Assembly (NCBI GenBank): GCA_019747655.1
Contig: JAIEQO010001061.1
Span: forward strand, 1-42,322
From: Gemmataceae bacterium
GTDB lineage: Bacteria; Planctomycetota; Planctomycetia; Gemmatales; Gemmataceae
Length of the DNA: 42,322 bases
Direction: 5' to 3'
In this document: one piece after another, positions 490 to 23,710 of the stretch
Numbering within the stretch: the first letter of the stretch is position 1
How the letters are laid out: each line of letters starts with the position of its first letter
Program-made: the position numbers and the translations under genes
The notes under the pieces: model-generated
Told to the model about the DNA's origin: nothing
Databases searched by the model: none
What the model saw: the letters and a program-made list of their open reading frames with translations, nothing else

Positions 490-2334
490 ATGCCCCGCCC
501 CTTCCGTGTCGCCCTGGTGCTCTTGCCGCTCATGGCGGGGTTGGCCGCCGGGGCGTGGTTCCTCCTCGAATCGCCGGACGCACCGACCCCGGCCGACACC
601 CCCCCGCCGGTCGCCACCGGCCCCGGCCCAGCCCCGACTCCACCCCCATCACAGCCCCCGGCCGGCAAGCTGGTGGTGCTCCTCATCTTCGACCAGATGC
701 GGGGCGACTACCTCGCCCGCTGGGCGTCGGCGTTCGGCCCGGACGGGTTCGAGCGGCTCAAGCGGGAGGGCGTCTGGTTCGCCGACTGCCACCTCCCGTA
801 TGCCTGCACCTCGACCGGCCCCGGGCACGCCTCGCTCGTCGCCGGGGCTCCGCCGTCGGTCCACGGGATCGTCGAGAACGACTGGTACGACCGGAAGGAC
901 GCGGCCCGGGTGTACAGCGTCCAGCCGACCCGGCCGTACGACCGGGTGCCGCCGCTCCCGGGGGCGGCCGGCCCGCCCGTCCGCGGGGTCGTCACCGGGT
1001 TCACCCCGGAGCGGCTGTTGGCCGAGACGGTCGGCGACAAGCTCAAGGCGGCGACCGGCGGCAAGGGCCGGGTGGTGTCGCTGTCGGTCAAGGACCGGGC
1101 CGCGGCTCTCATGGGCGGGAAGAAGCCGGACGCGGCCTACTGCTTCGACTACCGGGACGGCCTGTTCACCACCAACAGCTACTTCCGCGACCGGCCCCAC
1201 CCGTGGGCCGAGGCGTTCAACGCCGGCAAGCCGGCCGACGCCTGGGTGAACAAGCCGTGGTTGCCGTTCAAGGCGGACGCCGGGCTGTACGACAAGCTGG
1301 CCGGGCCGGACGACGCCCCGGGGGAAGCCCCCGGGGTCGCCCAGGGGCTGACCTTCCCCCACCCGATGAGCGACCTGACCAAGCCCGGGCCGGCGTACTA
1401 CGGGGCCGTCGAGACCTCGCCGTTCGGCAACGAACTGCTGCTCGGGCTGGCCAGGCGTGCGGTGGCCGACGAGAAGTTGGGCCACGGCCCGGCGGCCGAC
1501 CTGCTGTGCGTCAGCTTCTCGTCCAGCGACCTCGTCGGCCACGCCTGGGGGCCGGACTCGTGGGAGGTGCTAGATGTCACCCTCCGGGCCGACCGGCTGA
1601 CCGCCGACCTGCTCAAGTTCCTGGACGAAACCGTCGGCAAGGACCGGTACACGGTGGTCCTGGTCGGCGACCACGGCGTCTGCCCGATCCCCGAACAGAA
1701 GCGGTACCCGGAGCAGTACCCCGGGGCCGCCCGGGTGCCGGACGTGGCCTTCCTCGGCGGGCTGATGGAGGCCCTGGACGAGGTGTACGGCGTCCCCCCG
1801 GCCGGCCCGACCCGGTGGATCGAGCCGGCCCCGGCCGACGCCCTCCGGGTGCTGCCGTGGGTGTACCTGAACCGGGCGGCGATCACGGCCCGGGGGCTCG
1901 ACCCGGCGGCCGTCGCCCTCGTCGCCGCCCAGTGGTGCGGGAACCGGCCGTACATGCTGACCGCGTTCACCCGCAAGCAGATCGAGACGGGCGAGCTGCC
2001 GCCGCACGGGTTCGGCAGCCGGAACCAGGTGCGGGACGCGGCCGCCCGGGCGAAGCTGTCGTACCACCCGGACCGCTGCGGCGACTTCCTGGTAGTCCCC
2101 AAGCCGGGGGTGCAACTGACCGGGTACGCCGGCGGCACCGGTCACGGCAGCCCGCACCCCTACGACACCCACGTCCCGCTGGTGGTGTCCGGGGCCGGTG
2201 TCCCGGCGGCGGGCAAGATCGACCGGCGGGTTTCGGCCCTGACGGCGGCCCCGGTCCTGGCCCGGGCGCTGGGCATCGACCCGCCGGCCGGGGCCGCCGA
2301 GAAAGTACCGGACGAACTCGGGAAGGTGAAATGA
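490..2334 (+). CDS. PafA-like alkaline phosphatase / type I phosphodiesterase, exported
   Basis: A 614-residue member of the alkaline phosphatase superfamily, closest in layout to PafA-type phosphomonoesterases. It starts with a hydrophobic signal or anchor (about 6-27) and a Pro/Thr-rich linker (about 30-55). The catalytic domain opens with a metal-ligand Asp in LLIFDQMRGDY. The presumed nucleophile Thr is in CTSTGPGHASL, followed by ENDWYDR. Later metal ligands appear as VGDHG near residue 395 and HGSPHPYDTHVPL near 555. All expected ligand motifs are present, so I infer an active enzyme cleaving phosphate esters outside the cytoplasm. Its stop overlaps the start of the next gene (ATGA), so the two are probably co-translated. 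Substrate cannot be told from sequence; a phosphodiesterase is the alternative. Confidence 0.85.
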   Translation: MPRPFRVALVLLPLMAGLAAGAWFLLESPDAPTPADTPPPVATGPGPAPTPPPSQPPAGKLVVLLIFDQMRGDYLARWASAFGPDGFERLKREGVWFADCHLPYACTSTGPGHASLVAGAPPSVHGIVENDWYDRKDAARVYSVQPTRPYDRVPPLPGAAGPPVRGVVTGFTPERLLAETVGDKLKAATGGKGRVVSLSVKDRAAALMGGKKPDAAYCFDYRDGLFTTNSYFRDRPHPWAEAFNAGKPADAWVNKPWLPFKADAGLYDKLAGPDDAPGEAPGVAQGLTFPHPMSDLTKPGPAYYGAVETSPFGNELLLGLARRAVADEKLGHGPAADLLCVSFSSSDLVGHAWGPDSWEVLDVTLRADRLTADLLKFLDETVGKDRYTVVLVGDHGVCPIPEQKRYPEQYPGAARVPDVAFLGGLMEALDEVYGVPPAGPTRWIEPAPADALRVLPWVYLNRAAITARGLDPAAVALVAAQWCGNRPYMLTAFTRKQIETGELPPHGFGSRNQVRDAAARAKLSYHPDRCGDFLVVPKPGVQLTGYAGGTGHGSPHPYDTHVPLVVSGAGVPAAGKIDRRVSALTAAPVLARALGIDPPAGAAEKVPDELGKVK

Positions 2335-20013: not shown

Positions 20014-20889
20014 TCACTCGGGCACCACGTCCCCGGCCGCCCGGGAGGCCAGGGCCGGCATGACGGGGTCCGCCTCGTAGGCGAGGAACCGGGCCGACCC
20101 GTCGCAGAAGACGAAGTGGGCCCCGCCGGGGTGGGTGGACCAGAAGTGGAAGGCGGCGCACGGGTCGTCGACCGCCCCCGGGCCGAAGTGGTACGGGCCG
20201 GGCCGGCACCCGGGGGCGTAGGCCCCGGTGTTCCGGGCCCGCACCCCGAGCAGTACATCCGCGTCCCCGTCCCGGTCTTGCCCCCACCCGGCGTACCACC
20301 ACCCGAACACCATGTCGTGGCTCGGCGGCCGCTCGCCGACGGCCAGCGTCTGCGAGGTGCCGTCGGTGACATCAGTCAGCCGGACGGCCGACCCGGGGAA
20401 CAACACCCCGTCCTTCCGGGCGACGGACCGGCCGGCGACCCCGAGGTACGAGGTGAGCCCGCGGGTGAGGGTGCCGGCGACCACTTGCGGGTCCGCGGTC
20501 CGCCCGTCGGCCGGGCAGCCGAACACGGGGACGACCCGCTCGAGGCCGGGGTGGGGCGGGTCGACCGTGAAGTCCGGGTTGGCCTTGAAGGCCGCGTCGG
20601 CCTCGGCCCAGAGGGCGTCGTGGTCGAGGTGGGGCAGGAGCCGGGCCTGCCAGGACAGGAACGGGTACGGCTCGCCGGGGGCCGGGAGGGCGACCCCCGG
20701 GGGCAGGCGGCCGGCGGCCCCGTGGTACGAGTGGAGGGCCAGCCCGACCTGTTTCAGGTTGTTCAGGCACCGGGCGCGGGCGGCGGCGGCCCGGACCCGC
20801 TGGACGGCCGACAGCGTCAGCCCGACGAGGACGGCCATGATCGCCAGTACGACCAGCAGCTCGATCAGGCTGTACGCACGCCGACGCAT
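20014..20889 (-). CDS. DUF1559 pilin-like protein
   Basis: 291 residues. It starts with a type IV prepilin-like leader, MRRRAYSLIELLVVLAIMAV, in which YSLIE replaces the usual FTLIE: a prepilin peptidase would cut before YSLIE, with Glu at +5. The DUF1559 (SBP_bac_10) domain follows: CLNNLKQVGLALHSYH, then the conserved C-terminal THPGGAHFVFCDGSARFL. These proteins are greatly expanded in planctomycetes, and their role is thought to be as surface or pseudopilus-like proteins. It is the last gene of an operon of exported proteins (from 23647), 31 bases after the Cys-rich gene. GGGAGGGG lies just before the ATG. Confidence 0.88.
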   Translation of the reverse strand: MRRRAYSLIELLVVLAIMAVLVGLTLSAVQRVRAAAARARCLNNLKQVGLALHSYHGAAGRLPPGVALPAPGEPYPFLSWQARLLPHLDHDALWAEADAAFKANPDFTVDPPHPGLERVVPVFGCPADGRTADPQVVAGTLTRGLTSYLGVAGRSVARKDGVLFPGSAVRLTDVTDGTSQTLAVGERPPSHDMVFGWWYAGWGQDRDGDADVLLGVRARNTGAYAPGCRPGPYHFGPGAVDDPCAAFHFWSTHPGGAHFVFCDGSARFLAYEADPVMPALASRAAGDVVPE

Positions 20890-21461: not shown

Positions 21462-22601
21462 TCAAGGTTTCGGGAGCCGACGCCGGCGGGCCACCCCGAT
21501 GAGCCCGGCCGCCCCGGCTACCGCGGCCCCGGCCCCGGCGATGAACATCCAGTTGCGGCCCCACCACGACCGGACCGGCCGGTCCAGCGGCTCGCCCGGC
21601 TCGGTCCGCACGAGGACGTCGAACGGTTGGTTCCGCTCGTCGGGCAGAACGTCCCGCCGTGAACCGTCGGGGCGTACCACGAACCGCGACACGTCGTCGG
21701 GCCCGGATGAGTCCTCGACCCGGGTATTGGGCGGGGGTTCTGTCGAGAATTCACCGGACGAGACCCTCTCGCCGACCGCGCACTCGGTCACGCTGGCCTT
21801 GACCCGCCGGTAGAGGTGGCCCCCCTGGAGTTGGAAGATCGACACCCACCCGGCCGGTCGCCACCGCCCGGGGGCGTCCGCGGTGTAGTCGATGTCGTAC
21901 TGGGTGAGCGCGTACTGACCCGACCCATACTGTTGATAGCGGACGAGGTGGTAATCGCGACCCGGGTCGAGCCACAGGGTTGTGCCGGCCGTCGGCGTGG
22001 TACCGATGAACCCGACCTCGATGCACTGTGCGCCGTTGACGAGGGCGGTCCGCCCGGTTACCCGGAGTTCATTCGGATCCCAACCACCGAATCCGACACC
22101 GAGCGGCCGGAAGGCCGGTAGGAACGGGCTGGTGTTCGTCGTGACGAGCATCCGCGGGCTCGGGTCCGGTTGCCGGCTCATCCGCTTCGGGGCGGACCCG
22201 CTGTCGTGCAGGAGGGCCCCGGTTTTGCCGTCGTAGGTGGCCAGGATGTCGAGGTCGGAAAACGATTTCGTGACCGTGTTCACGATCTTCATGTGATTTT
22301 CCAGCCTGGCCTTCTCCCCGTCCATTACGACCGACCCGTGGCCCGGGAGGGTCGTGTCGGTCGGCGGAAACACCTCTCCGACGCCGTAGTCCTTCGGGGA
22401 CGCCTTCGAGCAAGCCCCCTTCGGGAAGAGCACCGACTGTGTCCACCTGATCCGGAACGTCTTGCTGGCGTCCTGCCGCTGCTGCAAGCGGGCCGTGATC
22501 TCCTCGATCGTCGGCACCTTCGGGGCCTGGGCCCCGCCCCGCCCCGGCCACAACGCCAGGGCGAGAACCCCGGCCGCCGCGATCACCCGGGTCGTCTTCA
22601 T
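21462..22601 (-). CDS. LolA-like exported protein with C-terminal membrane anchor
   Basis: 379 residues from the ATG at 22601, with AAGGAGA 5 bases upstream. A signal peptide (1-24) precedes a region (VPTIEEITARLQQRQDASKTFRIRWTQS) resembling the start of LolA/LolB-like or outer-membrane lipoprotein-sorting folds found in many planctomycete proteins. Strand-rich motifs such as GTTLWLDPGRDYHLVRYQQY support that fold. The C-terminus has one hydrophobic span (about 345-368) followed by ARRRRLPKP, which suggests an anchor with a cytoplasmic basic tail. Fold assignment is by pattern only. It starts 10 bases after the DUF1573 stop. Confidence 0.6.
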   Translation of the reverse strand: MKTTRVIAAAGVLALALWPGRGGAQAPKVPTIEEITARLQQRQDASKTFRIRWTQSVLFPKGACSKASPKDYGVGEVFPPTDTTLPGHGSVVMDGEKARLENHMKIVNTVTKSFSDLDILATYDGKTGALLHDSGSAPKRMSRQPDPSPRMLVTTNTSPFLPAFRPLGVGFGGWDPNELRVTGRTALVNGAQCIEVGFIGTTPTAGTTLWLDPGRDYHLVRYQQYGSGQYALTQYDIDYTADAPGRWRPAGWVSIFQLQGGHLYRRVKASVTECAVGERVSSGEFSTEPPPNTRVEDSSGPDDVSRFVVRPDGSRRDVLPDERNQPFDVLVRTEPGEPLDRPVRSWWGRNWMFIAGAGAAVAGAAGLIGVARRRRLPKP

Positions 22602-22611
22602 CGCCGTCTCC

Positions 22612-23647
22612 TTACGGCACGATCGTGACCGCGACCGGCACCGCCCGGACGCGGATCCCGACCCAGAAATAGGCGACCACAACTTCCCGGCGGACGACCG
22701 CCTCGTCCGGCGGCCGCCGCACCACCAGCCGCAGTTGGTCCGGCCCGTCGACGTGGACGGCGACAGGGACGCCGTCCGGGGCCGTCGCCGCGATCAGGCA
22801 GACCGGCCGGCCCGACACGGAGGCGAAGGCGACCGTCTCCTCCCGCACCTCGCCGGCCGCCAGCCCGGCCACCGCGACCTCGGTCGGCGACGCCCGCAGG
22901 TCCGGGACGACCGACACGGCCCCGGTCAGCCGCTTCCGGAACGCCGGCCCGGCCGGGGCGAACCGCCCGGTCAGGTCGAGGACGAACGAACGGGTCCCAT
23001 GCGGGGCGGTAGCGTCGGCCGTCAGGTTCAGGGCAACGGCCCGCCCGTCAGCAGCCAGCACGGGCTCACAGCGGACGATCGGCTGATCCGTAGTCGCGGT
23101 CAGTTCGGCCGCGGGGACGGCGAGGGACAGGTCGAACCGAACGGCCTGAAACCGCGGCCCGGCGTCGGACGCGACGACCACGAGGTCGGGGGGCGGGGCG
23201 GCGAGCAGCGGCCGGGCGACCCCCTCGACCGTCCACGCCGGGCCGACTCGGCCGCCGACCACCGGGGCGAACCCGACCGCCACGGGCACCGGGGCCGTCG
23301 ATGGTCCGACCTTGTCGCCGAGGTCGATCCGAACCGTCACCGACCGCGTCTCGCCCGGTTCGAGGCGGAGGGCGTCCGGCGACACCCCGAGGCAGTTGCA
23401 CGACGCCTGCCACCGCTCGACCACGACCGCGGCCGGGCCGGGATTGTGAACGGGCACGGCCCACTCGAACCGCGGGTCTTCCCAGACCGTGCCGAAGTTC
23501 AGTGCTGCCGGCTCGACGTGCAGGATAGGCGCGCTAGCGGGGGGGGGGGGGCGCAGTGGACGACGCCCGGTCTGCGGCGTACCGGCCGGCAACGACTGCC
23601 GCCGCGCTGCCGACGATTGCGAAGACGAGCGCCGTGCGCTGTGACAC
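22612..23647 (-). CDS. DUF1573 exported protein, reading frame broken at a C13 tract
   Basis: The body (about 300 residues) has a DUF1573 domain: LNFGTVWEDPRFEWAVPVHN and QASCNCLGVSP with the conserved Cys-x-Cys, an Ig-like exported module. Its reading frame has no suitable start of its own. The signal peptide (VSQRTALVFAIVGSAAAVVAG) is encoded just upstream in another frame, from a GTG at 23645-23647, and that frame stops at 23534-23536. The two frames meet at a run of 13 C on the coding strand (23539-23551). Twelve C would give one continuous 344-residue protein through APPPPASAP. A canonical promoter lies 34 bases upstream. It is the first gene of a four-gene operon. Either a sequencing slip, a pseudogene, or slipped-strand phase variation. 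Confidence 0.75.
23539..23551. repeat. Homopolymer: 13 G (13 C on coding strand)
   Basis: The only mononucleotide run of this length in the window. It lies between the signal peptide and DUF1573 domain and shifts the frame by one base. Confidence 0.95.
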
Positions 23648-23680
23648 CGGCGGCCCCCGTGTGACCACCCATCCCAAACG

Positions 23681-23710
23681 ATCATAAACATCGGCCACAA
23701 GGGGTGTCAA
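23681..23710 (-). promoter_or_regulatory. Strong sigma70-like promoter of the DUF1573 operon
   Basis: Minus-strand TTGACA (23705-23710), 18-bp spacer, TATGAT (23681-23686); the -10 ends 33 bases before the GTG at 23647. This is the closest match to consensus in the window, and its position supports the signal-peptide frame as the true gene start. Confidence 0.65.

Follow-up and report, generated by a model that had tools for sequence, protein, structure and literature searches.

The window, the whole 42,322-nucleotide stretch of Gemmataceae DNA analyzed here, probably contains a contingency (phase-variation) locus of the slipped-strand type, as judged from its sequence. A homopolymer of 13 C separates the N-terminal frame of a DUF1573 gene (gene 1) from its body, and on the best reading this copy would be OFF in the assembly consensus. 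Three features of contingency loci are found. First, a G/C tract of at least nine bases, the threshold of a Neisseria survey (PMC5953494), lies within the reading frame. Secondly, a change of one unit shifts the frame, and both states are present among paralogues and homologues. Third, the tract is commoner at this site than chance predicts (9 against 0.023).

In the proposed mechanism, the head gene of a predicted exported-protein operon carries a C/G homopolymer just past its membrane anchor, and slipped-strand mispairing during replication would gain or lose single bases. A tract length that fits the frame would give a complete anchored DUF1573 protein, and other lengths would lead to a stop a few codons past the tract, leaving a short anchor peptide only. 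The OFF state may also be polar on genes 2-4. We infer replication slippage as the cause, as well as switching within a population, surface location and polarity.

The tract and reading frames of gene 1

The features of the locus are as follows.

23705..23710, minus strand: -35 box TTGACA, part of an element that recurs among subfamily genes
23681..23686, minus strand: -10 box TATGAT, with an 18-nt spacer to the -35 box
23534..23647, minus strand: N-terminal frame of gene 1 (from a GTG start through a membrane anchor and a proline linker to a TAG stop); similar anchors in relatives
23539..23551, minus strand: C13 tract (G13 on the plus strand), the point where the frames part; tracts at the equivalent place in relatives
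22612..23538, minus strand: body of gene 1, an open frame next to the N-terminal one, matching DUF1573 (PF07610, E 3e-7); stop at 22612-22614
21462..22601, minus strand: gene 2, exported protein with a C-terminal membrane helix; the paralogous operon C581 has a homologue of 65% identity
20921..21433, minus strand: gene 3, a small secreted protein rich in Cys; C581 and G019 have homologues
20014..20889, minus strand: gene 4, DUF1559 protein with a prepilin-type N-terminus and an H-X9-DG C-terminus (PF07596, E 5e-36; TIGR04294)

A sequence-only reading of this DNA had described a frame that begins at GTG 23647 and ends at TAG 23534, with the DUF1573 body in the adjacent frame, and both were seen. 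The N-terminal frame translates as VSQRTALVFAIVGSAAAVVAGRYAADRASSTAPPPPR before its stop, and its 37 codons encode a membrane-anchor-like segment and then the proline linker. The junction had been given as 13 C, and a recount gave the same length at 23539-23551 (G13 on the plus strand, C13 on the coding minus strand). The length of 344 residues claimed for the product once in frame agrees with the coordinates. This tract is the sole run of at least nine bases within the 42-kb window, for which base composition alone gives a chance expectation of about 0.09 runs of at least 13.

The body of gene 1 (22615-23538, 308 open codons) matches DUF1573 with 30.7 bits against a curated cut-off of 26.1. 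A single-sequence structure model of the body has a mean pLDDT of 44 and is confident in the first domain only, a beta-strand-rich region of about 110 residues. The near-consensus promoter that had been proposed at 23681-23710 has both boxes, and the element TTGAC-N16..18-TAnnnT precedes 17 of 37 subfamily genes, whereas shuffled sequences gave 0.16 on average.

The order DUF1573, gene 2, often the Cys-rich gene 3, and DUF1559 is conserved across most loci compared, and gene 2 homologues come after gene 1 in most loci. Gene 2 itself had no Pfam or NCBIfam match, and its single-sequence structure model has a mean pLDDT of 34.9. Gene 1 had been described as the head of an operon of surface-type proteins. 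The comparison bears out a conserved operon headed by the DUF1573 gene, while the surface location of its proteins is something we infer from the anchors, the signal peptides and the pseudopilin-like DUF1559.

Tracts and frame states in homologues

Subfamily members were found with a profile of 16 bodies (A1). A protein search of the genome contigs with the window body as query gave no match, and whole-genome searches did find relatives. The DUF1573 subfamily is marked by the motif LDFGEVWE and a CxC pair, and is present across many Gemmatales genomes. For each of 48 unique subfamily genes from Gemmatales, the tract was taken as the longest run of C or G within the 60 nt preceding the body. 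Runs of at least nine were present in the linker of 9 of these 48 genes, against 0.023 expected from the per-genome number of such runs (P ~5e-21, although the genes share ancestry and such P values overstate their independence). When two genomes rich in noisy runs were removed, six were observed against 0.010 expected. The runs were C13 in the window, C19 in G000:C581, G12 in G004, C9 in both G019 and G053, G11 in G056, and C13, C12 and C13 in three genes of G025. Shorter linker runs (C7-C8) were present in G065, G067, G000:C909 and G025:C756. The sequence-only reading had proposed a comparison of tract length in close relatives, and in homologues this linker indeed has C/G runs 7-19 bases long, in both frame states.

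Most subfamily genes are without a tract, and none of 30 general DUF1573 genes had a linker run of at least nine. All tract-bearing subfamily members come from draft genomes; in G015, a complete genome, the subfamily member examined lacks one. On the tree of bodies, the tract label changes at least seven times on well-supported branches. The base is not conserved, being C in some genes (C9-C19) and G in two (G11 and G12). Thus, it is the homopolymer that is kept rather than proline. In addition, 84,980 species genomes were scanned for a C8 run followed 25-55 nt on by a DUF1573 motif, a collection from which the window's genome is possibly absent. All four matches fell in subfamily genes, from two draft genomes of Planctomycetia (SXHE01000204.1; JAKEEV010000930.1 and JAKEEV010000285.1), and the same scan had no match among viral contigs. 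As a separate observation, gene G009:C27 has a G11 inside its body (L150:1088-1098), and the parts on either side of it differ in frame, which gives the family a second tract position.

Frame states were assigned from start codons and from homology at the N-terminus. Automatic choice of the anchor frame by hydrophobicity was rejected, as it failed for G025 C1345a, G025 C1345b and G056, where the alternative frame is hydrophobic too. The genes of G004, G019, G053 and G056 and two genes of G025 (C13 and C12) are in frame, and the window gene, G025:C602 (C13), G065 and G067 are out of frame. In C581, the contig has only 48 bases of sequence upstream of the tract. Among tract carriers, 4 of 12 genes were out of frame, against 1 of 17, an excess that was not significant (p 0.13) and was given no weight.

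That a single C may toggle the gene is supported most directly by a natural pair of paralogues in G025. The C12 gene (C1345b) is in frame and a C13 gene (C602) is out of frame, and their flanks are near-identical. The three G025 genes have in common a 5' stretch of about 270 bp that spans the promoter, start, anchor, tract and beginning of the body. Identity is about 90% around the tract and drops to 30-55% beyond this stretch, as if the 5' end had been exchanged or converted between paralogues. These 5' cassettes (L202:60-340, L202:6204-6483 and L203:1-268) precede bodies as different as unrelated DNA. The 7.5-Mb genome of G025 has only eight runs of at least ten bases, three of which are at subfamily genes. 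The recurrent tracts in homologues and the one-C difference between paralogues fit a contingency tract rather than a one-off assembly indel, and they support the frameshift or phase switch first raised for the window.

Other explanations of the frame break

The most serious alternative, which we consider unlikely, is an assembly or base-calling error, in which case the real tract would keep the frame and the gene would always be on. The draft is fragmented into 1113 contigs whose ends dissolve into poly-G/C that looks false, and homopolymers of 13 bases are prone to error. However, the tract is interior to a 42-kb contig, and tracts lie at the same place in other assemblies, so the position is a homopolymer site regardless of its exact length. 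The count of 13 may be off by one in a short-read assembly, and the tract and its recurrence would still stand.

Long homopolymer runs can promote slippage, and the site is conserved. Programmed slippage by RNA polymerase or the ribosome would give a fixed mixture of full-length and truncated products from one DNA length, and long runs such as these could promote it. This class of event is discussed in PMC3711429. However, the tract differs widely between members in both base and length (C7-C19, G11-G14), and several of them need no slippage to be in frame. Both points make such slippage less likely; similar runs also occur in promoter-like spacers, where frame is irrelevant. We regard it as an unlikely explanation.

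A chance frameshift in a decaying copy is the least probable reading, for although the family does lose members, as frame-broken relatives without a tract indicate (G026:C361, G048 and G000:C909; L152, L151, L121 and L158), the window body is open across 308 codons, it has a dN/dS of about 0.4 when compared with the C581 paralogue, the promoter and downstream genes are intact, and the sole lesion sits in the tract.

Known systems and other tracts

Homopolymer on/off switches are best known from pathogens, and homopolymer phase variation has been studied almost solely in host-associated bacteria. In Neisseria pilC, a homopolymer of 9-20 within the reading frame of an exported protein likewise switches it on and off (PMC5953494). 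However, pilC belongs to another protein family and phylum, encodes a pathogen pilus protein for which switching is demonstrated, and has no DUF1573/DUF1559 operon. When gene 1 was checked for PilC/PilY1 homology no model matched, and DUF1573 was the sole Pfam family above cut-off. The window locus would thus work like pilC but is not a PilC/PilY1 member. The Chlamydia pmpG family, also of the PVC group, consists of paralogous surface proteins with variable C/G tracts, in which in-frame and out-of-frame members occur together (PMC6740158). Those proteins are autotransporters of a host-associated organism with tracts mostly deep in the gene, and the window gene is not of that protein family. 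Mononucleotide runs were also proposed as a cause of phase variation in Akkermansia muciniphila, another PVC-group bacterium, but that proposal concerns capsule genes of a single genome and no gene family in which runs recur at the same site (PMC3048395).

The proposed mechanism is known from Neisseria pilC and Chlamydia pmp; the gene family is new, and the phylum apparently so. A survey of frame transitions (PMC3711429) included just two planctomycete genomes. No report of phase variation in planctomycetes or Gemmata was found in the open-access literature, which is weak evidence of novelty as most subscription papers lie outside that scope, and no paper on DUF1573 in planctomycetes was found there. 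If the switch is real, bet-hedging by recurrent tracts at one site would exist in Planctomycetota, and the abundant DUF1559 and DUF1573 proteins would gain a handle on their role, as exposed proteins under shifting selection. Automatic annotation would also be missing or truncating the genes that bear tracts.

A broader and tentative proposal is that Gemmataceae have a phase-variable set of exported proteins around DUF1573/DUF1559 operons, with tracts after anchors, in signal peptides and in promoter-like spacers, and with a 5' cassette (promoter, anchor and tract) common to paralogues whose bodies have diverged. Such a set would resemble antigenic variation, here in environmental bacteria and perhaps directed against phages or predators. 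The wider set of tracts is a selection and a lead only, since other internal runs have no such setting and lie in intergenic sequence or in stretches rich in Pro/Gly. Runs in intergenic repeats of the CCCTCCC type or in Pro/Gly-rich proteins were not counted as switches. Contigs of the window's genome (G000) often end in messy poly-G/C beside GGYGAGCGTCGGGGGG, a dispersed hairpin repeat (L048-L071). Such contig-end runs, which are most of the long runs of the window's genome, look like sequencing or assembly noise and were left out of the analysis.

Several tracts in the window's genome lie near the start of genes for exported proteins. For example, C770 has a G14 after the anchor of a second DUF1573 gene, which is out of frame and is followed by a predicted exported protein. 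In C1068, the signal peptide of a small secreted protein contains a G11; this gene is also out of frame and is followed by a DUF1559 gene. In C899, a PEP-CTERM protein has a C11 within its signal peptide and is in frame. Upstream of a Cys-rich secreted protein in C580, promoter-like boxes flank a G11. In G025, a G13 lies upstream of a large repeat-bearing surface-type protein. Runs of G8 and G7 also lie between the -35 and -10 boxes upstream of a DUF1573 gene in L125 and L037. A homopolymer in the spacer between these boxes is a known arrangement of phase-variable promoters. Lastly, an exported-protein gene of the complete genome G015 has a G16 in its signal peptide (L235, near 1496-1511, minus strand); this gene is in frame and overlaps the end of a DUF1559-like gene.
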